This document shows, piece after piece, positions 3-11,949 of a DNA stretch of 13,160 nucleotides. The position numbers were made by a program, and so were the translations under genes. Below the pieces are notes generated by a model. That model did not search any database and was not told the DNA's origin. It saw only the letters and a list, made by a program, of their open reading frames with translations. Location: the NCBI GenBank assembly GCA_023405705.1, contig JAEXXR010000369.1:1-13160 (forward strand), in the 5' to 3' direction. This DNA comes from Actinomycetes bacterium (lineage in GTDB: Bacteria > Actinomycetota > Thermoleophilia > Solirubrobacterales > Solirubrobacteraceae). Positions within the stretch are counted from its first letter, which is position 1; every line of letters starts with the position of its first letter.

Positions 3-869
3 TCAGTCCCGTTCGAGCCGGTCGAGCGCGGCGGCGCTGGCCTGCGCGGCGGCGTCGTCGCCACGGGCCGGCGCCGGCAGCTCCACGCCGCTCGGCAGCT
101 CCATGTGCAGGGTGGTGAGCGCCTCGATCCGCAGCACGCCGGGCCCGACGGCCGCGCTGAGCACGTGGCCGCCGTGCTGCCGGTCGTCGGTGATCGCGTG
201 CAGGTGGACGCCGGGCAGCTCGACGCCCGCCGCGACCTGCGGAAAGCGGAACCCGACGAGCGTCCCGTCTGCGGAGGGAAGCATGAAGTCGCGCATCTCC
301 GCCGCGACCTCCATCAGCGGCCGGTACGGCCGCCGCTGCCGACCGACCGAGCGCGCGTGCACGACGGCGAGGCGGCCGTCGAAGCGCACTGCGAGCGTCG
401 TGGCTGCGGCGCCCGGCGCCGGCACGGCTGACGCGGCCGTCGCGCCGTCACCAGCCGACGCCGGTCCTGCCGGCGCGTGCGCGTCGACGAACGCGAGCAG
501 CTCGTCGTGCGCCAGCTCCCGGTCGACGGCGACGGTGACGTCGGCGCCGAAGGGCGTGACGACCGCGAACGGGGTCCGGGCGTCGTCGCCGACCGGCTCG
601 ACGGTCCCGTCCAGCCGGGCCCGCCAGACCCGGCCGTCAAGCGCGATCATCTCCCCGTCGAGCGCCTCGAAGGTCCCGAGCCCGAGGTCGCCGTGCGCGA
701 GCAGCTCCCCGATCGTCAGGTCGCCGTCGTATGCGCCGTCGAGCAGCGCCGCGAGCGTCGAGGTCTGGAAGACGACGTGCGGCGCGGCGTGCTCGTCGGC
801 GAGCGCGTCGTGCCGGACGGCGTGCGGATGCAGCGCGGCGATCAGCTCCGGGTCGATCGCGGTCGCCAC
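3..869 (-). CDS. budA: alpha-acetolactate decarboxylase
   Basis: Predicted cytosolic metalloenzyme (EC 4.1.1.5) that decarboxylates 2-acetolactate to acetoin, the branch from pyruvate and valine metabolism to acetoin/butanediol. The 288-aa product has the family signatures: VFQTSTLAALLDGAYDG (about residues 33-49), the GTFEALDGEM block with Glu68, and a C-terminal GVHLHAITDDRQHGGH segment whose His222, His224 and His235 match the family's zinc ligands. Family members are usually about 240-260 aa; the excess here is an Ala/Pro-rich insert near residues 133-157 plus a short tail. No signal peptide is seen. The GTG start is preceded by GAGGGG at 6-nt spacing, and TGA is at 3-5. No acetolactate synthase gene lies in the window. 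High G/C at third positions fits resident chromosome. The family call is secure; the physiological role is inferred. Confidence 0.93.
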   Translation of the reverse strand: MATAIDPELIAALHPHAVRHDALADEHAAPHVVFQTSTLAALLDGAYDGDLTIGELLAHGDLGLGTFEALDGEMIALDGRVWRARLDGTVEPVGDDARTPFAVVTPFGADVTVAVDRELAHDELLAFVDAHAPAGPASAGDGATAASAVPAPGAAATTLAVRFDGRLAVVHARSVGRQRRPYRPLMEVAAEMRDFMLPSADGTLVGFRFPQVAAGVELPGVHLHAITDDRQHGGHVLSAAVGPGVLRIEALTTLHMELPSGVELPAPARGDDAAAQASAAALDRLERD

Positions 870-1078: not shown

Positions 1079-1152
1079 GGTGGGCGTAGCTCAGTTGGTA
1101 GAGCTCCTGGTTGTGGTCCAGGCGGTCGCGGGTTCAAGTCCCGTCGCTCACC
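1079..1152 (+). tRNA. tRNA-His (anticodon GTG)
   Basis: The cloverleaf can be folded by eye. Acceptor GTGGGCG (1080-1086) pairs with CGCTCAC (1145-1151) with one G-U; D stem GCTC/GAGC; anticodon stem CCTGG/CCAGG around loop TTGTGGT (1111-1117) with GTG at 34-36; T arm GCGGG-TTCAAGT-CCCGT. Discriminator C at 1152 and a G at 1079 provide the G(-1):C73 pair that marks tRNA-His. CCA is not encoded. From the anticodon loop onward the gene is duplicated at 10094-10136, so the 3' half present here is probably the copy carried in by the integrated element, which restored the gene. Confidence 0.96.
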
Positions 1153-1153
1153 C
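1111..1153 (+). repeat. attL core (43-bp direct repeat, tRNA-proximal copy)
   Basis: This 43-bp segment, from the tRNA-His anticodon loop to just past the discriminator base, is identical to 10094-10136. Integration into the anticodon-loop-to-3'-end part of a tRNA gene is classical for tyrosine recombinases, and the integrase gene lies 1.2 kb inside this end. Confidence 0.93.
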
Positions 1154-2253: not shown

Positions 2254-2332
2254 CAACTCTCTCCACAACTCCGCTCGGCACGCCTCGGCGCCCCGGCGCC
2301 GCCACCGTGACGCCAGTCCGGAGGTGGTCCCG

Positions 2333-3679
2333 ATGACCCGCGCCCGCAGCGGCCAGGTAGTCGAGCGCCAGTGGAAGTCCGGCCGCGGCTACGCCCTGCG
2401 CTTCCTCGCCAACGGCAGACGCGAATACGTGACCCTCGGCCTGGAGCGCGACGGCTGGGACCGCGCCAGAGCCGAAGAGGAACTGCAGAACGTCATGGCC
2501 GACGTCCGCCGCGGCATCTGGATCCCGCCAGAGCGCGGCAGAGCGACAGCCGCGGCGAACGGCGCCGCAACCGCAGCCGATCCAGTGCAGCGCCGCGCCA
2601 ACGGGCAACGCCGCACCGACGCGCGCGACGGTCACGACGCGGGTCCGACGAGCGCCGCCGGCCCGACGTTCCGCGAGTTCGCGACCGACTGGCTCGCCCG
2701 CCGCGAGGGCGAAGTCGCGCCCCGGACGGTCGAGTACGAGCGCTGGGCGCTGACCCACCACCTGCTTCCGCACTTCGCCCATACGCCCCTGACCGCGATC
2801 GACATCGCAGCAGTCGACGCCTACCGCCGCACCAAGGTCGCCGAATCGGACCGCCGCCGCCAAGCGATCGAGGCCGGCCGCCCGCTCCGCTCAGGCGCGG
2901 CTGGCAACGGCGTTCTGCGTCCGTTGTCCCCGGCGACGGTGAACAAGACGATCGACGTGCTCCAAGCGGTGCTGGCCTTGGCGCGGGAGTACGGCCACAT
3001 CACCAACAGCCCCGCGACAGGCCGCCGCCGGCGCCTGAAGGCCCCAAAGCACCGCCCGGTCCATCTGGACGCCGCAGAACCGATCCAAGCGCTGCTGGCC
3101 GCCGCGGCGGCGCTGGACGCCGACCCGCGCCACCGCATGCGCGACCGCCACGCCATCATCGCCACCCTCCTCTTCGCCGGCCTCCGCGCCCACGAACTGT
3201 GCAACCTGCGCTGGCGCGACATCGACCTCCCGGGCGCCCGCCTCCACGTCACCCGCTCCAAGACCGACGCCGGCCGCCGCACCGTCGACCTCCTCCCCAC
3301 CCTCAGAGCCACCCTGCAGGCCCACCGCGACGGCATCGACGCCACCGGCCCTGACGACCTCGTCTTCCCAACCGAATCAGGCACCCAGCGCGACAAGGAC
3401 AACCTCCGCAACCGCGTCCTCCAGCCCACGATCCCAGTTGCCGACCGCCTCCTGGCTGAGCGCGGCCACCCACCGCTCCCACGCGGCCTCACGCCCCACA
3501 AGCTCCGCCACACCTACGCCTCAATCCTCGTCGCCAGCGGCACCGACCTCGCCACCGTCATGCACCAACTCGGCCACACCGACCCCCACTTCACGCTGCG
3601 GACGTACAGTCACGTCATGCGACGGGATGCTGCGGAGCGCCGACGCCTTCAAGCCGAAGTGAATAGCTCTCTGCGCTAG
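2333..3679 (+). CDS. tyrosine site-specific recombinase (integrase)
   Basis: A 448-aa phage-type integrase expected to catalyse insertion and excision at the tRNA-His 43-bp site. Residues about 7-60 are a beta-rich arm-binding-like N-terminus (KSGRGYALRFLANGRREYVTLG). About 66-112 is a low-complexity Arg/Ala linker. About 113-235 is a SAM-like core-binding domain, and about 245-440 the catalytic domain. Catalytic residues are complete: Arg285 (AGLRAHELCNLRW), Lys310 (SKTDAGRRT), His389 and Arg392 (HKLRH), His415 (QLGHTD) and Tyr425 (TLRTYSHV). ATG 2333 is preferred over the in-frame GTG at 2324 because GGAGGT lies 7 nt before it. The gene adjoins attL and is intact, so the element may still be mobile. 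Operator-like repeats precede it and a strong hairpin follows it. Confidence 0.95.
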   Translation: MTRARSGQVVERQWKSGRGYALRFLANGRREYVTLGLERDGWDRARAEEELQNVMADVRRGIWIPPERGRATAAANGAATAADPVQRRANGQRRTDARDGHDAGPTSAAGPTFREFATDWLARREGEVAPRTVEYERWALTHHLLPHFAHTPLTAIDIAAVDAYRRTKVAESDRRRQAIEAGRPLRSGAAGNGVLRPLSPATVNKTIDVLQAVLALAREYGHITNSPATGRRRRLKAPKHRPVHLDAAEPIQALLAAAAALDADPRHRMRDRHAIIATLLFAGLRAHELCNLRWRDIDLPGARLHVTRSKTDAGRRTVDLLPTLRATLQAHRDGIDATGPDDLVFPTESGTQRDKDNLRNRVLQPTIPVADRLLAERGHPPLPRGLTPHKLRHTYASILVASGTDLATVMHQLGHTDPHFTLRTYSHVMRRDAAERRRLQAEVNSSLR

Positions 3680-4088: not shown

Positions 4089-4931
4089 GTGGCATCGCAA
4101 ACAAGACGGAGAATCAGGTATGGGCCTGGAACCGGCAAGTTCCTTTTCCGGATCCGGCAGGACCACATAGCCGATCGGTACGCGCCGCTGATCGCCGGAA
4201 AAGCCGTCGGAGCAGTCAAGCTCGACCTGCTCCTCCGCGCAATTGCGCTTCTGCCAGAAGATGCAGGAGCCCGGAAACCTGGCTACGTGTTGCATCACTG
4301 GTCCTACGAGCACTTCCATGATCTGGTTCGCGGCCCTTTGGAGCATCGAGCCGATCGAATACGGACGGATCGAGAAATCCGCCACCTCAAACGGAAATGG
4401 GTGGACAATCAGCTCAGAAAGCTCGTTGGTCTGAGGCTGCTGCGAGTCGAGCCGATTCCCGGCAAGCGTCCGAGACTGATCGTGCTACGCGACGATGGAA
4501 CCGGAGAACCGTTCGATGATCCCGGGGCGACTGGGGGCCGTACCGACCGCTACGTCACAATCCGTGGAAGCGTCATTACGTCGGGCACACTCGCTAGATG
4601 GCGAGCGGCTCAAGTGGCGGCGTATCTGTCAGCGCTCTACGCGGAATTTTACACCGAGCGGCAGAGAGATCGAGTGCTCTCGGCTGACGGGACGGGCCGA
4701 TGGTGGCGGCAGCTCGCGTGGTTCAACCAAAGCGACTGGCATCCTCTCGAACGACCGCTCCTCCCGTTCTCAAAGAGCCTGCTCGAGAACGGTTTCAGCG
4801 TGCTGGACGACCAACGATTGATCAGACGAACCAAGATTTCAACAGATCCTCGGACGAAGGAGAGATTCCCAACGGCGCGCGTTCTCTATCAGAATCGGTT
4901 CGCAATCCTCGATAGGAGCGTCGAGACCTAG
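4089..4931 (+). CDS. uncharacterised protein, probable tandem winged-helix DNA-binding protein
   Basis: 280 aa, GTG start with GAGGAG 7 nt upstream, a strong ribosome site. I do not recognise the family with certainty. Residues about 60-145 resemble a winged helix: helices, then a Lys/Arg-rich recognition-like segment (HLKRKWVDNQLRKLVGLRLL), then a wing (RVEPIPGKRPRLIVLRDDGTG). Residues about 155-200 (YVTIRGSVITSGTLARWRAAQVAAYLSAL) and 225-270 repeat the helix-plus-basic-wing pattern (NGFSVLDDQRLIRRTKIS, then RVLYQNRF). This layout resembles actinobacterial replication-initiator-like or regulatory proteins. No membrane segments or enzyme motifs are seen. Direct repeats upstream suggest autoregulation. 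The gene is less GC-rich than the flanks, lies between integrase and the ATPase cassette on the same strand, and is probably its own transcript ending at the hairpin at 5011-5036. Confidence 0.7.
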   Translation: MASQTRRRIRYGPGTGKFLFRIRQDHIADRYAPLIAGKAVGAVKLDLLLRAIALLPEDAGARKPGYVLHHWSYEHFHDLVRGPLEHRADRIRTDREIRHLKRKWVDNQLRKLVGLRLLRVEPIPGKRPRLIVLRDDGTGEPFDDPGATGGRTDRYVTIRGSVITSGTLARWRAAQVAAYLSALYAEFYTERQRDRVLSADGTGRWWRQLAWFNQSDWHPLERPLLPFSKSLLENGFSVLDDQRLIRRTKISTDPRTKERFPTARVLYQNRFAILDRSVET

Positions 4932-5010
4932 TTCACCCGGCGCGCCATCGCAGCACCGACCCACGCAAGGGTGAAGTCGCGCAAGGATTCCTACCACGGC
5001 AGCCGGGTTC

Positions 5011-5036
5011 AGCTCGCTGGCCTTCGCCAGCGAGCT
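5011..5036 (+). terminator. 11-bp perfect hairpin after the orphan gene
   Basis: AGCTCGCTGGC (5011-5021) pairs perfectly with GCCAGCGAGCT (5026-5036) around loop CTTC, 80 nt past the stop at 4931. There is no T-run, so it is a likely GC-type terminator rather than a canonical one. 4932-5010 shows nothing else. Confidence 0.6.
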
Positions 5037-5056
5037 TGCTGAGCGCTTCGTCCACG

Positions 5057-5245
5057 ACGCTCAAGATGCTCCACCCGCTGCCCCGGCCGACACGCGCCGA
5101 TCTGCTCACCGAGGTCTTCGACCACATCGAGACTCCTACAACCGCGCGCCGGCGCACACTGTCCTCAGCCATCTCTCCCCGGAGAGCTCAAGGACACAGC
5201 AATCCAAGCCGCCTACTAGGCGGCCCATGCCCGCTACCGCCGGCA
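5057..5245 (+). pseudogene. remnant of an IS3-family transposase C-terminus
   Basis: Three reading frames read successively give the end of an IS3-type (DDE, IS150/IS3 OrfB) transposase. First LHPLPRPTRADLLTEVFDHIET, matching the family's VFDYIE-FYNRRRRHS region. Then, after a frameshift near 5133, SYNRAPAHTVLSHLSP. Then, after another near 5185, ELKDTAIQAAY, an in-frame TAG and AAHARYRR, matching the DTAIQAA end. No catalytic core or terminal inverted repeats remain. The first segment is fused in frame to the ATPase gene downstream, so automatic annotation may wrongly start that gene at 5036. Recognition is from family memory. Confidence 0.6.
5208..5224 (+). repeat. small hairpin in the transposase scar
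   Basis: GCCGCC and GGCGGC flank TACTA, giving a 6-7 bp stem. It falls on the degraded transposase end and includes the TAG, so it may be fortuitous. Confidence 0.25.
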
Positions 5246-5274
5246 TTGTTTCGTTGGCACGCGGGTGATGCGCT

Positions 5275-5294
5275 GGTGGCTCGGCAGAGCCACC
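5275..5294 (+). repeat. 8-bp perfect hairpin upstream of the ATPase gene
   Basis: GGTGGCTC and GAGCCACC surround loop GGCA, about 100 nt before the ATPase start. It could be a terminator insulating the cassette or a leader structure. No other signal is visible between 5295 and 5392. Confidence 0.4.
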
Positions 5295-5392
5295 GCTGCC
5301 CACATGACTTCGCGGCCGGCGCTCAACCAGCCACATGGCGCGGCGAGAGCCGAATTCCCCGTGGCGCCGGTGACCTCCACGCCGTCGCCCCG

Positions 5393-6595
5393 ATGCGAGA
5401 CAATGACAGCGTGAGCCCGCGCGCGGCATCTAAGCTCGATCGACCCGAAGGCATTACGCCGGCTGAAGAAGCGCTCCTCGACGTCAGCCGTCTCGCGCTT
5501 GAAGGCAACATTCGTTCCTTGCGGCAGAGGATCCGCAACTTGCTGCGGGATCCCGTCGGTGGTCCCGTTAGCGCCCCCGCACGCCAGTATCTGGGTGAGC
5601 TTCTCGCCACCGTCGAGCCCGTCGTGCAACCACTGCGAGCGCCGTCGCCTCACCCAATCTCTCGACAGACCGTGGGGCCGCCCCTCGACGAACGTGCTTC
5701 CGAGCTGCTGGAATTCGACGATGCGGAGCACCCGATCGCCCCGTCCCTGGTCGGACATACGCATCACCAACTTCAGCGGCTCATCGTTGAACGGGAGCAA
5801 GCCGACCGGCTCCGGCTCGCCGGTGTCGCGCCGACAACGACGGTTCTCCTCTCCGGCCCCCCGGGTGTTGGCAAGAGCATGACCGCGCGCTGGCTGGCTA
5901 GTGCCTGCCAACTTCCGCTGCTGCGGCTCCGCGCGTCGTCCGTCATGTCCAGCATGATGGGCCAGTCAGCACGCAACCTTACCCATGCGCTTCGGTACGC
6001 TCGTGACCATGCGTCGGTTCTGCTGCTCGACGAATTCGATGCGTATGCCCGTCGGCGAGATGACCAACTTGACATCGCTGAGCCGAAGCGCCTCGTCAAC
6101 TCTCTGCTCCTCGAACTTGAGCATTGGCCTGATCATGGAATGCTGATCGCGGCGACCAATCACCTTGAGGCACTCGATCCCGCGATCGGTCGACGGTTCG
6201 ACCTCCATCTTAAGCTTGACCTCCCGGACGCCCAGACACGAAGCCGTCTTCTCGAAACCGCGCTCGGATCTATGGGATGGACGGTCAGGGAGCCGCTTAT
6301 CGAGATCGTTGCTGCAGCGACCGACGGGTTGAGTGGCAGCGATCTCACCACGCGCGCACGCCAGGCGATTCGTACAGCAGTACTCGACGAGGTTTCGATC
6401 GAAGCGGCGATTGCAGAGACATTGCTTCCTGGAACATGGCAACCGGACAACCGTCGCGATGTTGCGCGCCGCCGCGACGCCGCTCGGGACCTGTGTGAAC
6501 TGCTGGACTACGATGTCGCAAAGGTCGCTTCTCTTGTCGGACTCAGCACCAGGGTTATCAGAACTGCTATCAAGCGACCCCAAGGCGCGGGTTAG
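5393..6595 (+). CDS. ietA: AAA+ ATPase, IetA-like (IetAS module)
   Basis: A 400-aa cytosolic AAA+ ATPase of the classic (FtsH/CDC48-like) clade. Residues 1-120 are a helical adaptor-like region; 121-310 the nucleotide-binding domain. Walker A is GPPGVGKS (155-162), Walker B VLLLDEFDA (209-217), sensor 1 ATNH (254-257), arginine fingers RRF (267-269), and the helical lid has GLSGSDL (312-318). Residues 372-394 resemble a helix-turn-helix (VAKVASLVGLSTRVIRTAIKR). In IetAS modules an AAA+ ATPase acts as antitoxin or regulator of a subtilase, and the pair is listed among antiphage systems. The subtilase is present here but encoded on the opposite strand, with one gene between. ATG 5393 is preferred; GTG 5411 is possible. 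The open frame back to 5036 is transposase debris. Domain call very firm; module assignment inferred from the pair. Confidence 0.85.
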   Translation: MRDNDSVSPRAASKLDRPEGITPAEEALLDVSRLALEGNIRSLRQRIRNLLRDPVGGPVSAPARQYLGELLATVEPVVQPLRAPSPHPISRQTVGPPLDERASELLEFDDAEHPIAPSLVGHTHHQLQRLIVEREQADRLRLAGVAPTTTVLLSGPPGVGKSMTARWLASACQLPLLRLRASSVMSSMMGQSARNLTHALRYARDHASVLLLDEFDAYARRRDDQLDIAEPKRLVNSLLLELEHWPDHGMLIAATNHLEALDPAIGRRFDLHLKLDLPDAQTRSRLLETALGSMGWTVREPLIEIVAAATDGLSGSDLTTRARQAIRTAVLDEVSIEAAIAETLLPGTWQPDNRRDVARRRDAARDLCELLDYDVAKVASLVGLSTRVIRTAIKRPQGAG

Positions 6596-6603
6596 TTCTC
6601 TCC

Positions 6604-7359
6604 ATGGCTTCCGCCCGTAGCAAGTATCTGACCGAGATTTCCGGTCAATGGCAGTACCTTCCAACTTGGTTGCCGGGGCGGACGGTTAGGCTCGGACAGG
6701 TTGGGCACTTCGACCGCGGAGCCGTCGAAGTCGCCGGCGACCTTGCGGCTCACGGCTTCGACATCGTCGAGGATGTCGATCAAAGCCAGAGCTCCCTCTC
6801 GTACAGTAGCGAGAGGGCAGTCGAATGGGGCTGGACAGCCGACGCCAGTCTTGCTACTGGAGAGCGTGCAGATGTCGAGGTGACGTTCTCCCGAGCGAAC
6901 GCCGTTCTGTTCCACGCATACGAGGCTGTCGAGCACCGCATATCCAACCTCGCCGAACTCAAGTCGCTGATTCTTGAACTCGATGCCAAGGACACTTGGC
7001 CATCAAGGAGCGCTGTGATCGTCAGCGTGGTGAGCGCCCGAGCAACGACGGTAATGATCTCCTCCTCGTCGGACGCTTCGGTCGTTTGCGAAGCCGAGGT
7101 AGGTGCCTCCCTTGGTAGTCTCGCCGACCCGAGACTCGGTTTGCGTCAGAGAAGTGCGCGAAACATGGATACAACCATTGTCGCCGACGGCAATTTGACT
7201 CCGCTCTACCAAGCGCTCATTTTGCGACGGGGCTTGTTCGGCAACAGATTTGTCAAGGCGCTCCGGGGCGCCGAGACCCTCGCCGCCGACGATCCCCTTC
7301 GCGCGGCGGTTGACGATGACTTCACTCTTTGCGAAGTCGACCTTGAGCCTTTAGGTTGA
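6604..7359 (+). CDS. unrecognised 251-aa cassette protein; weak gasdermin-like pattern
   Basis: It starts 8 nt after the ATPase stop on the same strand, with no clear ribosome site, so it is probably translationally coupled. No enzyme motif, signal peptide or transmembrane helix is evident. The pattern is mostly short beta-like segments: LPGRTVRLGQVGHFD (about 23-37), ADVEVTFSRANAVLFHAYEAVEHRI (about 89-113), SAVIVSVVSARATTVMISSSS (about 135-155), then TTIVADGNLTPLYQALILRRGLFG (about 192-215) and a charged tail of about 36 residues. That order, including the G-x-x-PL-x-x-A-x-x-L phrase before a short tail, recalls bacterial gasdermins, which sit beside proteases that cleave off an inhibitory tail. 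This rests on memory only. The N-terminal cysteine that is palmitoylated in characterised bacterial gasdermins is absent. Safest call: unknown partner of the ATPase/subtilase pair. Confidence 0.55.
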   Translation: MASARSKYLTEISGQWQYLPTWLPGRTVRLGQVGHFDRGAVEVAGDLAAHGFDIVEDVDQSQSSLSYSSERAVEWGWTADASLATGERADVEVTFSRANAVLFHAYEAVEHRISNLAELKSLILELDAKDTWPSRSAVIVSVVSARATTVMISSSSDASVVCEAEVGASLGSLADPRLGLRQRSARNMDTTIVADGNLTPLYQALILRRGLFGNRFVKALRGAETLAADDPLRAAVDDDFTLCEVDLEPLG

Positions 7360-9714
7360 GACGATGATCGGTGCCTCGACTCGGAGCGGGGTCAGAGCGT
7401 CCGCGGCTGCAGCGTGCACACGATCGTAGAGCTGAACGCCTGCAGGCGCCGTAACAGTTACAAGCATTGCGTACCGAAGCTCTTCGTTGCTAGTGGCTCT
7501 GGACATGCCTCCACCTGCGCGAGTGAGAAGGTGCAGGTCAAGTGCGGGCTCGAAAAGGGACTTCGCCATCAAGCGGTCATCGACGCGAACCGTCGTCTCC
7601 CACTTCCGGACGCGCTGCTCGGCTTCAGGCGCGTACTCGCTGAGTCCTCGTGAGACGGGGCGGTCGCTAGGGGTCCGACCCTGCTCAATCAGGTACTGAT
7701 ACAGCTCTGGTCCGCCCGGCTCCAGCCGATTTACCCGAATGGGCGCCTGTCCCTTCAGGTTCAGGTTAAATGTCTCAGCATGGGGGCGGAACCGCACTTC
7801 AATGCCGGCACGGGTGTAGTCAACGGGATCACTGATGTCAACTGGTGACGTGAACGCCAGAGTCCATCGGATGTCGACCTTCCGACCTCCCAATTCGCTC
7901 AGGAGGTCGCTCGGTACTGGCAACGGGAGCATCATCGTCTGGCCACGCAGCAGACGATCCTGATAGAGAATTGTCACTCCGTTAGGTTGGCACGTGAGGT
8001 CTTCCAACAGTGACCCCGGAACCCGGCCATAGCCGACCTCGACGTGAGATCTGTCTGGGCGGCGGTCAGCATGATGGACAGCGAATGCGCGCAGAACATT
8101 CTGATCAGCGCGGTCTCCTAACGCATGAGCAAGCTCCGCCAGGCTGCGCGCAACAGCAGGTGTTGCGAGACTTGTACCATGGCTAAAGCCGTATTGTCCC
8201 CCCGGGATCAAGCAGCCGAACGGAGCCTCCGGAGTGCCACCGCAGCCGAGCACCTGTGGCGCCACGCGGGCTCCAGCTCGGCCTGGCCCAATACTGCTGT
8301 ATGGGGCGCGTCCCCAGACGTCCGAGTCATGGTTGTTGCACGCTCCTACGCTGAGTCCGTTCACGATGTCGCCGGGCACTACGAGCACGTTCTCACGAGA
8401 GGTAGCGTCCCCCTCGCCAGTATTCCCGGCGGCAACACAGAACAGCACGTCGTGACGGGATGCAAGCTCGTCTAAGGCGACAGTCCAACGGTGCGGTGGG
8501 CCATCGGGTTCAACATTGAACTGTGGTCCGATGCTGAGGCTCACCAGTCTATGCTGCCCACGCCGGACTTCCTTGATGATCTCGTCGAGGACCCAATTCA
8601 TATGCTGATCCGCACGGTACTCGGCGGGCGGCGGCCAAATCCGAAAGTGATCGATGTACGCTGGAGGGGTCTGCAAACCGACTGCTGGATCAATGTTGCC
8701 AAATGTGGCTGCGGAGGCAACGGTCGTGGCATGAGCGACCGATCCTGCATCGGTCGCCGCGTCTTCAGTGAGGTCTTTGTAGGAGACGTAGCGACTAAGA
8801 GCCGGCACGGTGGTAGGCAACCCACCATCGAAGACTGCGATGCGCCGCTCGCTGCTCGGACGCTCGGACGGTGCCATCGGCTGGACCCCGCCGATACCGC
8901 GCATCTCAAGCGGCGGCAGAATCTCCATCGCCGGCATCGGGTGCAGTGCACGAAGAGGATTGAACAGCACTGCCTCGTCCAGTCGATCGCGCGGCAGCAG
9001 AACGGGTACGAAGGTCAAGCGCTGGTGTGAACGCAACCAGTCCAGATCAACTTCGCCCCCCAACTCGTCGACCCACAACTGCCACTTCTTCAAGACCTGT
9101 GCCAGCCCGCGCTGGTCTGGATGCCCGTTCTCGTCCACGACAGGGTGCAGCACAGCCTCCATCGCAACCCGGCCACCGATCTCGATGTAGTTCTCGTTAG
9201 CGCGGTTCAGGACCGTGACTGGATTGGGAGCTGCAATGTCTTGCAGTTTCACGACATCCTCGAGTACCCCTCTGCTGAGGTCACCCTCGGTAGCCTCCAG
9301 CAACTGCTCCAAGCGGCTCAGCGCTTCAACATGACCTGAGACGAGGTATGCCTTCGTTGGAGCGTTCTCCTCGCGTCTGGTCTTCGTCACGTACGTTCCG
9401 GTTTCCGCGCGAGTACCAACCCGCTGGACCCCCATGACCGACAGCAGCGCACCCGGGAAGCTCGAAGTCGCAAGGTAGTTCGGCAGGACACTTGCCTCGA
9501 ATATCAGGCGCGGACCGCGCAACCTGTCGGGCAATTCGGCAAGCTGCTGACGAACCTGCCGAATGCGTGGTCGGAGTCGAACGCCCACTTCATAGAAGCT
9601 CTGGGGTGAGTTCGAGGAGCCACCACCTGGCGGCCGCAACGTCGGAACGACAAGACGCTCACCTCCGGTCAGGAGATTGCGCGAATTGGAAGAAGGATCC
9701 GTACTCAAACTCAT
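7351..9714 (-). CDS. ietS: subtilisin-like (S8) serine protease, IetS-like
   Basis: A 787-aa intracellular-type subtilase without signal peptide or membrane anchor. Residues 1-290 are an N-terminal region typical of the large ATPase-linked subtilases; 290-550 the S8 domain; 560-787 a C-terminal beta-rich domain. The catalytic set is complete: Asp296 (RRIAVFDGG), His328 (VAHATTVAS, with Ala where HGT is usual), oxyanion Asn431 (AAGNTGEG) and Ser515 (GTSLATPA). Large subtilases paired with an AAA+ ATPase are the IetS toxin/effector component. It is convergent with the ATPase operon, overlapping the 251-aa gene's end by 9 nt. Start choice is uncertain: ATG 9714 (AAGGGG abuts it; TTG 9708 would have ideal spacing) or ATG 9825 (GGAAGG 10 nt upstream). 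The frame is open to 9996, but that reaches into the right-end att array. Confidence 0.88.
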   Translation of the reverse strand: MSLSTDPSSNSRNLLTGGERLVVPTLRPPGGGSSNSPQSFYEVGVRLRPRIRQVRQQLAELPDRLRGPRLIFEASVLPNYLATSSFPGALLSVMGVQRVGTRAETGTYVTKTRREENAPTKAYLVSGHVEALSRLEQLLEATEGDLSRGVLEDVVKLQDIAAPNPVTVLNRANENYIEIGGRVAMEAVLHPVVDENGHPDQRGLAQVLKKWQLWVDELGGEVDLDWLRSHQRLTFVPVLLPRDRLDEAVLFNPLRALHPMPAMEILPPLEMRGIGGVQPMAPSERPSSERRIAVFDGGLPTTVPALSRYVSYKDLTEDAATDAGSVAHATTVASAATFGNIDPAVGLQTPPAYIDHFRIWPPPAEYRADQHMNWVLDEIIKEVRRGQHRLVSLSIGPQFNVEPDGPPHRWTVALDELASRHDVLFCVAAGNTGEGDATSRENVLVVPGDIVNGLSVGACNNHDSDVWGRAPYSSIGPGRAGARVAPQVLGCGGTPEAPFGCLIPGGQYGFSHGTSLATPAVARSLAELAHALGDRADQNVLRAFAVHHADRRPDRSHVEVGYGRVPGSLLEDLTCQPNGVTILYQDRLLRGQTMMLPLPVPSDLLSELGGRKVDIRWTLAFTSPVDISDPVDYTRAGIEVRFRPHAETFNLNLKGQAPIRVNRLEPGGPELYQYLIEQGRTPSDRPVSRGLSEYAPEAEQRVRKWETTVRVDDRLMAKSLFEPALDLHLLTRAGGGMSRATSNEELRYAMLVTVTAPAGVQLYDRVHAAAADALTPLRVEAPIIVST

Positions 9715-9944
9715 CCCCTTGGGATTCTCACGTGTCGCGAGAGCGCGTGCCACGATACACAGCCGTTCGGTCATGCGCGTCGTTTCAAGCGCAGCCGCGA
9801 TGACGCGTGGGTAGGCGACGTCCATGTGTCCCGCGCCTTCCAACCGCTCATCGCAGATCGTGCGGGCGCTCAGTGGCGGAGGCTCCGGTGACGGCGCGCT
9901 CCCAGCGCGGGTTGGCGCGGCCTTCCCCTCGGCGCCCGGATTTG

Positions 9945-9967
9945 GGCACTCAGGCCCGCCGAGTGCC
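9945..9967. repeat. right-end inverted repeat GGCACTC/GAGTGCC
   Basis: Perfect 7-bp arms with a 9-bp spacer, immediately inside the right phased array. The arm GAGTGCC also forms half of the left-end palindrome at 1232-1243, linking the two ends. The surrounding 9826-10093 stretch has no convincing gene and must contain the subtilase promoter, which I could not pick out. Confidence 0.5.
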
Positions 9968-10006
9968 TGAATCCCGCCGAATCGCCAGCAATCCACGCCA
10001 ATCCAC
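9967..10006 (-). promoter_or_regulatory. right array of four 10-bp-phased GATT motifs (candidate integrase arm sites)
   Basis: AATC (GATT on the minus strand) begins at 9970, 9980, 9990 and 10000, exactly 10 bp apart. Minus-strand 10-mers are GTGGATTGGC, GTGGATTGCT, GGCGATTCGG and CGGGATTCAG. The array ends 91 bp from the attR core, comparable with 103 bp on the left, and is oriented oppositely. The inverted placement at the two ends of the element supports arm-type integrase sites. Confidence 0.6.
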
Positions 10007-10093
10007 CGCCGCTCGCGCGCCCCGCGACGCGCGGCACGCAGCCGCGAAATCCCTGCAAACCACGAACTTCCGCCCCACCACCAGCGCTGCTGC

Positions 10094-10136
10094 TTGTGGT
10101 CCAGGCGGTCGCGGGTTCAAGTCCCGTCGCTCACCC
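10094..10136 (+). repeat. attR core (43-bp direct repeat; tRNA-His 3' fragment)
   Basis: Identical to 1111-1153. It contains only the anticodon loop through the 3' end of tRNA-His; the 5' half is missing, so it is not a functional tRNA gene. Because DNA beyond it again looks like an element left end, it is probably at once attR of this element and attL of an older one. Confidence 0.93.
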
Positions 10137-10142
10137 CTCAAG

Positions 10143-10170
10143 AAGCCCCTGCTAGCGCAGGGGTTTCTTC
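10143..10170 (+). terminator. terminator after attR
   Basis: AAGCCCCTGC and GCAGGGGTTT form a 10-bp stem (one G-U) with loop TAGC, followed by CTTC. It is the counterpart of the tRNA terminator at 1161-1185, with a different stem sequence but the same position relative to the core. Confidence 0.7.
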
Positions 10171-10214
10171 GTTTCCGGGGCCGTTGCGAATCGCCCGTGA
10201 TCGGGCGGCCTGAC

Positions 10215-10228: not shown

Positions 10229-10236
10229 CTTTTCCG

Positions 10237-10276
10237 GCCGATTGCCGGGGATGGGTGTGGATTCGGCCGGATTCGG
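10237..10276 (+). promoter_or_regulatory. phased GATT array of the second element
   Basis: GATT begins at 10240, 10260 and 10270, with GATG at 10250, keeping the exact 10-bp phase. 10-mers include GCCGATTGCC, GTGGATTCGG and CCGGATTCGG. Same orientation as the left array of the intact element. Confidence 0.55.
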
Positions 10277-10322
10277 CGTTGCTCGGCGCCCGGCATCGAG
10301 TTGCGGTCAGCCGGGTCTACAA

Positions 10323-10363
10323 GGTGGCTCCGGCGGCGCTGTAACGCCCCGGGGCCTGACACC
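10323..10363 (+). other. bulged hairpin, copy 2
   Basis: GGCTCCGG pairs with CCGGGGCC (one G-U), then a bulged C, GGCG/CGCC and loop CTGTAA, with outer GGT/ACC. Relative to copy 1 the inner stem shows a compensatory T-A to C-G change and the loop differs, which argues for selection on the structure. Confidence 0.55.
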
Positions 10364-10371
10364 GGAGCAGG

Positions 10372-11230: not shown

Positions 11231-11518
11231 ATGACGCCACATGATGCAGCGATCAAGCCGGAGGTGGGGGTGCGGGAGCTGCATGACCAGCTCAGCCGCT
11301 ATGTCAGACACGCCGCTGAGGGCGGCGAGGTCGTCGTGACGATGCGCGGGCGACGGGTCGCCCGCCTGTCGGCGATCGATGAGGTCGATCCGCTCGCCGA
11401 CCTGCGCGCGCGGGGGCTCATACAGGAGCCGACTCGGCCGAAGCGGCGACGGAGCGGCAGCCGCCGGATCAAGGCCGGTGGGTCGGTGTCGGATCTCGTC
11501 GCCGAGCAGCGGCGCTGA
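11231..11518 (+). CDS. vapB: Phd/YefM-family antitoxin of a VapBC-type pair
   Basis: A 95-aa antitoxin predicted to bind and inhibit the PIN toxin encoded next and to repress the shared promoter. Residues 12-50 (VGVRELHDQLSRYVRHAAEGGEVVVTMRGRRVARL) are the Phd/YefM DNA-binding and dimerisation fold. A basic linker (68-82) precedes the C-terminal GGSVSDLVAEQRR segment that normally wraps around the toxin. ATG 11231 fits a near-leaderless transcript from the -10 box just upstream. An alternative GTG at 11270 has GGAGG 5 nt before it but would trim the front of the fold. It overlaps the toxin frame at its stop codon. High G/C third positions match the chromosome rather than the adjacent element. 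Confidence 0.88.
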   Translation: MTPHDAAIKPEVGVRELHDQLSRYVRHAAEGGEVVVTMRGRRVARLSAIDEVDPLADLRARGLIQEPTRPKRRRSGSRRIKAGGSVSDLVAEQRR

Positions 11519-11949
11519 TCGTCTACTTCGACACCTCGGCGCTGGTCAAGCTCGTCTTCGACGAGCCCGGCTCCGATCTTGTGGGCGAGCTGTGGGATCG
11601 GGCGTCGTCGGCGTTCTCGGGGCAGCTCGTCTATCCCGAGGCGCGTGCTGCGGTTGCGGCAGCGCATCGCAATGGCCGGCTCGATGCCACTCAGCTGAGG
11701 GCTGCGGTTCGCGCGATCGACGAGATCTACGAGGAGCTGACCAAGGTCGCCGTCGACGCCGCGCTCGCCAGAGCCGCCGGCGGTCTCGCCGAGCGCCGTG
11801 CCTTGCGCGGCTACGACGCGGTTCACCTCGCGTCTGCCTTCGCTATCGACAGTCCCGACGTCGTGCTGGCGACCTGGGACCGCGCCCTGGCGGCCGCGGC
11901 TGTGGAAGAAGGGCTTGCAGTCGTGCCGGCCCGGTCTGACCGGGCCTGA
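11515..11949 (+). CDS. vapC: PIN-domain ribonuclease toxin VapC, non-canonical start
   Basis: A 144-aa PIN-domain toxin, expected to be a Mg2+/Mn2+-dependent RNase that cuts tRNA or rRNA when the antitoxin is lost. The acidic active-site set is complete if translation begins at about 11515: Asp6 (IVYFDTSALVK), Glu42 (VYPEARAA), Asp101 (GYDAVHLASA) and Asp122 (ATWDRAL). No ATG, GTG or TTG exists in frame before the first motif. The candidate is CTG at 11515, overlapping the antitoxin TGA (CTGA), with ATC 11518 next. The first standard start, GTG 11581, would delete Asp6 and strand 1 and kill the enzyme. So translation is probably coupled to antitoxin termination with a CTG start, unless a start-codon mutation has inactivated the toxin. 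Confidence 0.85.
   Translation: MIVYFDTSALVKLVFDEPGSDLVGELWDRASSAFSGQLVYPEARAAVAAAHRNGRLDATQLRAAVRAIDEIYEELTKVAVDAALARAAGGLAERRALRGYDAVHLASAFAIDSPDVVLATWDRALAAAAVEEGLAVVPARSDRA
11928..11946 (+). terminator. hairpin at the end of vapC
   Basis: GGCCCGGT and ACCGGGCC form an 8-bp perfect stem with a CTG loop, ending just before the toxin stop codon. There is no T-run. It overlaps coding sequence, so this is a tentative terminator. Confidence 0.4.

Follow-up and report, generated by a model that had tools for sequence, protein, structure and literature searches.

IetAS, a known anti-phage system, pairs an AAA+ ATPase with a subtilase (IetA and IetS in PADLOC, IteA and IteS in NCBIfam), usually encoded by two adjacent co-directional genes, and the available text of PMC8160871 names ietA/iteS as a toxin–antitoxin system. 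Bacterial gasdermins (PDB 8sl0, 9a84, 7n50, 7n51 and 7n52) are described in the excerpts available as lipid-modified (PMC10989679) and as being cut about 20 residues from the C-terminal end, with caspase-like proteases stressed as partners (PMC9612521). In the accessible part of PMC13236601, CARD-NLR systems of Lysobacter combine a protease-activated gasdermin with CARD and NLR-like components in a multigene bacterial defense locus. In fungi, according to extracts of PMC10989679 and PMC12881547, the S8 subtilase HET-Q2 removes ∼5 kDa from the end of the gasdermin HET-Q1, and ∼80% of gasdermin genes lie near protease genes, with ∼60% of those proteases being of the S8 type and ∼17% being CHAT-type or other cysteine proteases. 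Here we describe a three-gene cassette in a 13,160-nucleotide stretch of DNA (contig JAEXXR010000369.1, referred to below as the window) from an Actinomycetes bacterium of the family Solirubrobacteraceae; the names attached to some relatives of its subtilase likewise suggest an actinobacterial host close to Solirubrobacterales. We consider it probable that this cassette is an IetAS-like protease switch whose dedicated effector would be a gasdermin-like pore former, carried on an 8,983-bp element in tRNA-His.

The cassette lies within positions 5393–9714, and all three genes are intact. An IetA-like AAA+ ATPase gene (5393–6595, forward strand) is followed, after a gap of 8 nt (6596–6603), by a gene for a 251-residue protein (6604–7359, forward strand, with its ATG at 6604), and the IetS-like gene for a 787-residue subtilase (7351–9714, reverse strand) converges on this middle gene from the other side. 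The middle-gene stop codon is the TGA at 7357–7359 and the subtilase stop codon is at 7353–7351 on the reverse strand, leaving 9 nt (7351–7359) common to both genes, exactly as laid out in the first-pass annotation of this DNA. The starts at 5393 and 9714 are choices, with the mechanical open reading frames (ORFs) beginning upstream at 5036 and 9996. No sigma-70-like promoter was found in 4900–10200, where 0.8 would be expected by chance, a result of little weight in a GC-rich genome, and in a crude hydropathy check all three proteins lacked a hydrophobic N-terminal segment.

The outer genes were thought from the start to encode an intact IetAS-like pair, and the sequences bear this out at the family level. 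The ATPase contains GPPGVGKS (residue 155), LLLDEFD (210), AATN (253) and GRRFD (266), which we take to be the Walker A, Walker B, sensor 1 and arginine finger motifs, and the subtilase triad D296/H328/S515 occupies invariant columns in an alignment of 15 subtilases (the window protein and 14 picked among the 120 relatives listed). Both proteins match their PADLOC models along most of their length (IetA, PDLC02196, 5.2e-64; IetS, PDLC02197, 1.5e-34) as well as Pfam AAA (8.2e-28) and Peptidase_S8 (1.8e-17), respectively. However, the NCBIfam equivalog models match far below their cut-offs (199 vs 510 bits for IteA and 95 vs 900 bits for IteS), and we therefore refer to the pair as IetAS-like rather than as proven equivalents. 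The architecture also differs from that of the usual pair in having a third gene inserted and the subtilase on the opposite strand. That this order is unusual, as had been proposed, is clear from other loci: the ATPase and subtilase genes are co-directional in 23/23 plasmid records and share a strand in 7/7 genome loci, i.e. in all 30 places checked elsewhere, with one counted twice. The plasmid pairs are the records common to the ATPase matches listed (40 of 1,838) and the 47 IetS plasmids; their members lie within ∼2.1 kb of each other and include several near-copies (e.g. three from Xanthomonas and two from Kitasatospora). The locus present in both sets was recognized because L057 and the plasmid of L006 are both 199,256 bp long. 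The genome matches to the ATPase (96/396) were not used as a count of IetA, since the weaker ones are probably other AAA proteins. Two plasmid IetAS pairs (L004, 1414–7380, and L007, 1083–7053) stand directly after an operon encoding a multiubiquitin-domain protein and a ThiF-family adenylyltransferase.

The middle gene had been regarded as a third component, either substrate or effector; a gasdermin, as predicted from the structural models, would be both. It is not a chance ORF, because a search of 5.8 billion proteins returned seven relatives at 53–98% identity and a profile search extended the family to 55 proteins, the seven close relatives included. The AlphaFold2 model (predicted local distance difference test, pLDDT, 88.2) has a gasdermin fold: among PDB structures, Foldseek ranks 12 gasdermins first, with probabilities of 0.54–1.00 against 0.07 for the next match, VIA-align also matches the model to gasdermins, and a second model, of the distant family member P0008, agrees. 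Like bacterial gasdermins, the protein is ∼250 residues long, has protease neighbors and carries a short tail behind a variable linker. The best-conserved ten-residue block across the family is 191–200 and the most variable is 221–230, as measured by entropy per column. The latter falls in the linker (codons 209–236, 7228–7311, forward strand), which is variable by column entropy and partly of low confidence, and which we propose as the cleavage zone. It is followed by a conserved C-terminal strand (codons 237–243, 7312–7332, forward strand; residues 240–243 form the strand in the model), a candidate inhibitory tail in which D237 is kept in 45/52 rows and L242 in 49/53. A low-confidence stretch precedes the tail in both models (residues 211–214, with pLDDT <50, in the window protein and 217–232 in P0008), and the family as a whole retains this arrangement of linker plus tail. 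Short or partial rows (P0040, P0044, P0051, P0054 and P0055) were dropped from alignments A3, A4 and A6; A4 also excludes L001 and L002, and A6 covers the distant branch only.

The protease company of the middle gene's relatives had suggested a gasdermin before any structure was predicted. Three distant relatives were found by tblastn in 72,556 plasmids, and plasmid searches with two distant family members returned the same three records. In Embleya, the relative begins 182 nt behind a CHAT gene (4.7e-14); in Gemmatirosa, its start follows by 30 nt an ORF whose transglutaminase-like match falls below threshold; and in Mesorhizobium and a Streptosporangiaceae genome, it is convergent to a block of ASCH, QueC-like, unknown and CHAT genes. 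A further relative, in genome G754 (L045, 5837–7716), is convergent, with a 16-nt overlap, to a 374-residue ORF holding an HExxH motif; this candidate protease was read by eye, and the ORF is without a Pfam match, its match to PDB sequences being at chance level (E 0.94). Overall, the protease neighbor in the six other loci is a CHAT protease in three and a weak candidate in two, with none recognized in one, and at the window locus it is the subtilase; these two kinds, S8 subtilase and CHAT, are the same two found beside fungal gasdermins. The family is rare, occurring in 1/396 genomes of a phylum sample, where the single genome is the one used as its center, and in 2/399 genomes of a class sample (G754 and G588). 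In viral contigs, no relatives of the gasdermin (searched with two alignments) or of the subtilase were confirmed, and phage records gave no match. The block of ASCH, QueC/QatC-like, unknown and CHAT genes with a convergent gasdermin relative recurs in two phyla (L003, 5986–12347; L008, 7887–14405, a single locus from the scan of genome contigs) and looks like a defense cassette of its own. Among eight proteins from the relatives' loci, PADLOC matched one, the QatC-like protein, and a gene for an Ntox4-domain protein (6.6e-13) lies just upstream of the gasdermin relative at L008 (6277–7515).

Two of the seven close gasdermin relatives can be linked to a close relative of IetS. P0003 and the subtilase P0058 are both on a contig of 216,869 bp, and P0007 and the subtilase P0065 are both on one of 771,579 bp, which we take in each case to be the same contig; linking by equal contig size was checked on one case, P0077 (498,124 bp), which proved to be the subtilase of genome G614 on an equal-sized contig. 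The first-pass annotation held that its three-component reading would be refuted if homologous pairs consistently lacked the middle gene and the latter occurred in unrelated contexts. Half of this is what we observe: searches turned up no gasdermin relatives at the seven genome IetAS loci or at plasmid loci L004–L007, the 47 IetS plasmids and the three gasdermin plasmids have no member in common, and the relatives occur without IetAS. Their contexts are not unrelated, however, because most of the relatives stand beside other proteases and two close ones lie on the same contig as a relative of IetS. The earlier reading is therefore partly supported, although it had seen neither the gasdermin fold nor the mobile element. 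Rather than being a fixed subunit of IetAS, the gasdermin gene appears to be an optional module linked to proteases. Its family, missed by sequence libraries, has somewhat more likely than not formed separate pairings with subtilases and with CHAT proteases, and perhaps with other peptidases.

By analogy, the closest precedent for the cassette is the fungal one, in which a subtilase activates a gasdermin, and we think that IetS would likewise activate the middle protein, with IetA gating IetS. Both systems place a gasdermin and a subtilase side by side and have, or are predicted to have, a short C-terminal inhibitory piece; HET-Q1/HET-Q2 differs in being a fungal allorecognition system whose two genes are alternatives at one locus (PMC12881547, as excerpted), and the available text of PMC10989679 and PMC12881547 mentions no AAA+ partner. 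In the resting cell, the ATPase would either silence the subtilase or keep it apart from its target. On infection the subtilase would be freed and would cut the gasdermin linker at about residues 209–236; the gasdermin, having lost its C-terminal strand, would form ring-shaped assemblies in the membrane of its own cell, and the pores would kill the infected cell before phage release. Two-gene IetAS pairs would have to use another target, whereas here the genome would supply one. The convergent gene order would, at a guess, let the protease be expressed separately from its target.

Several observations weigh against this mechanism. The template modeling (TM) scores to gasdermins are modest (0.40–0.42), and no sequence-level link of the family to gasdermins was found in Pfam, PADLOC, NCBIfam (a chance match only) or PDB sequences, libraries in which the presence of a bacterial gasdermin model was unchecked. 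The window protein also lacks the N-terminal cysteine of lipid-modified bacterial gasdermins, having none in its first 12 residues (4/53 rows have one), although this residue is not known to be needed by every member. Ordinary two-gene IetAS pairs manage without a gasdermin. For five of the seven close relatives (P0001, P0002, P0004, P0005 and P0006), no link to a subtilase could be made, and none of five close subtilases (P0059–P0063, on contigs of 8.0–16.5 kb) is matched by a gasdermin entry with the same contig size. In a subtilase tree (39 of the 120 relatives listed, the window protein and nine loci, with L005 and L006 left out), one change splits the three gasdermin-linked rows from nine two-gene rows, with seven unlabelled rows, P0059–P0063 included, among them; because five of these unlabelled subtilases lack a gasdermin entry of equal contig size, even this group may be able to do without the gasdermin. 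Finally, the weak relative in genome G588 (L046, 6e-11) has no protease seen adjoining it by eye, and the IetAS pair of that genome sits on a different contig.

These points feed the explanation that best survives alongside ours, which is that the gasdermin is real but is not the target of IetS: two defenses would share one element, and another protease would cut the gasdermin. The two-gene form of ordinary IetAS, the other protease kinds that adjoin gasdermin relatives and the opposite strands of the gasdermin and subtilase genes here all fit this view. However, no other protease gene was recognized inside the element in a Pfam scan of the window proteins, and two other contigs join a close gasdermin relative to a close IetS relative despite the rarity of the family, so we regard this explanation as unlikely. 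It is less probable still that the middle protein has a gasdermin-type fold but acts differently, for example as an inhibitor or decoy substrate of IetS. A shared fold does not show function, the N-terminal cysteine is missing and the first model is indistinguishable from a fold relative that lost pore formation, but the barrel-forming strands are long and confidently predicted in the AlphaFold2 model and the linker-plus-tail pattern has been kept. That the middle gene is a chance neighbor, unrelated to the genes on either side, is very improbable: although two-gene pairs are the rule among the IetAS loci checked and only two of seven close relatives have a subtilase link, the 8-nt spacing, the 9-nt overlap and two linked contigs within a rare family argue against coincidence. 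A different pore former with a fold of the MACPF/CDC kind is scarcely credible, since complement C9 and CDC appear only as the next-best folds and the ranking of structure matches led us to reject them.

The cassette, judged from sequence features, is cargo of a small integrative element in tRNA-His, with an integrase, a tRNA target and a direct repeat at both ends. The tRNA-His gene (1080–1153, forward strand; ARAGORN, and Rfam at 63.9 bits) is the integration target, and its last 43 nt (1111–1153, forward strand), which form the left attachment (att) core, are repeated without mismatch in the right att core (10094–10136, forward strand), a spacing that gives an element of 8,983 bp. Between the left core and the cassette, all on the forward strand, lie genes for an XRE-type helix-turn-helix regulator (1479–1838; PF13560 1.3e-10, PF01381 1.4e-9), a possible ribbon-helix-helix protein (1832–2062; PF01402 0.017, below cut-off), a tyrosine integrase (2324–3679; PF00589 8.3e-21) and a 280-residue protein (4089–4931), an ORF for which Pfam, PADLOC and NCBIfam gave nothing above chance. 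The DNA behind the two att copies (1248–1385 and 10232–10367) is 71% identical over 141 aligned positions, which suggests that a second, related element in tandem has left a remnant beyond the right att site; a pattern made from this repeated stretch had no match in viral contigs. Outside the element, the right flank encodes a PhdYefM-like antitoxin (1.4e-6) and a PIN-like toxin (0.0028), neither quite reaching its Pfam cut-off (11231–11949), and the left flank encodes an alpha-acetolactate decarboxylase (1.5e-60; 3–869, reverse strand).

Bacterial gasdermins as described so far differ from the middle protein in its lack of a sequence-profile match and in its partner, here a subtilase, and the CARD-NLR systems differ in their additional components; a Pfam scan of the window proteins picked up no CARD or NLR-like domain. 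In the literature searched, IetAS and gasdermins are named together only in tables or reference lists, although a subtilase-linked case may already stand in the main bacterial gasdermin paper (Johnson 2022). In the same literature, work pairing gasdermins with subtilisin or subtilase concerns fungi and microorganisms, with other titles on toxins, plants and disease. Structure clustering has reported unannotated gasdermin clusters, one of them resembling bacterial gasdermins (PMC10584675, in excerpt), and the present fold family may therefore already be grouped there.

No target of IetS is stated in the IetAS literature covered, and the seeming supply of a dedicated substrate at this locus makes the defense pair testable by a cleavage assay. 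We lean, by a little, toward viewing IetAS as a general protease-activation platform that takes added effectors, here yielding an AAA+-gated bacterial subtilase–gasdermin death pathway that would mirror fungal HET-Q2/HET-Q1. The locus adds a predicted gasdermin family unrecognized by Pfam, PADLOC and NCBIfam and, if our reading is correct, would connect bacterial gasdermins with subtilases, the proteases most often partnered with gasdermins in fungi.

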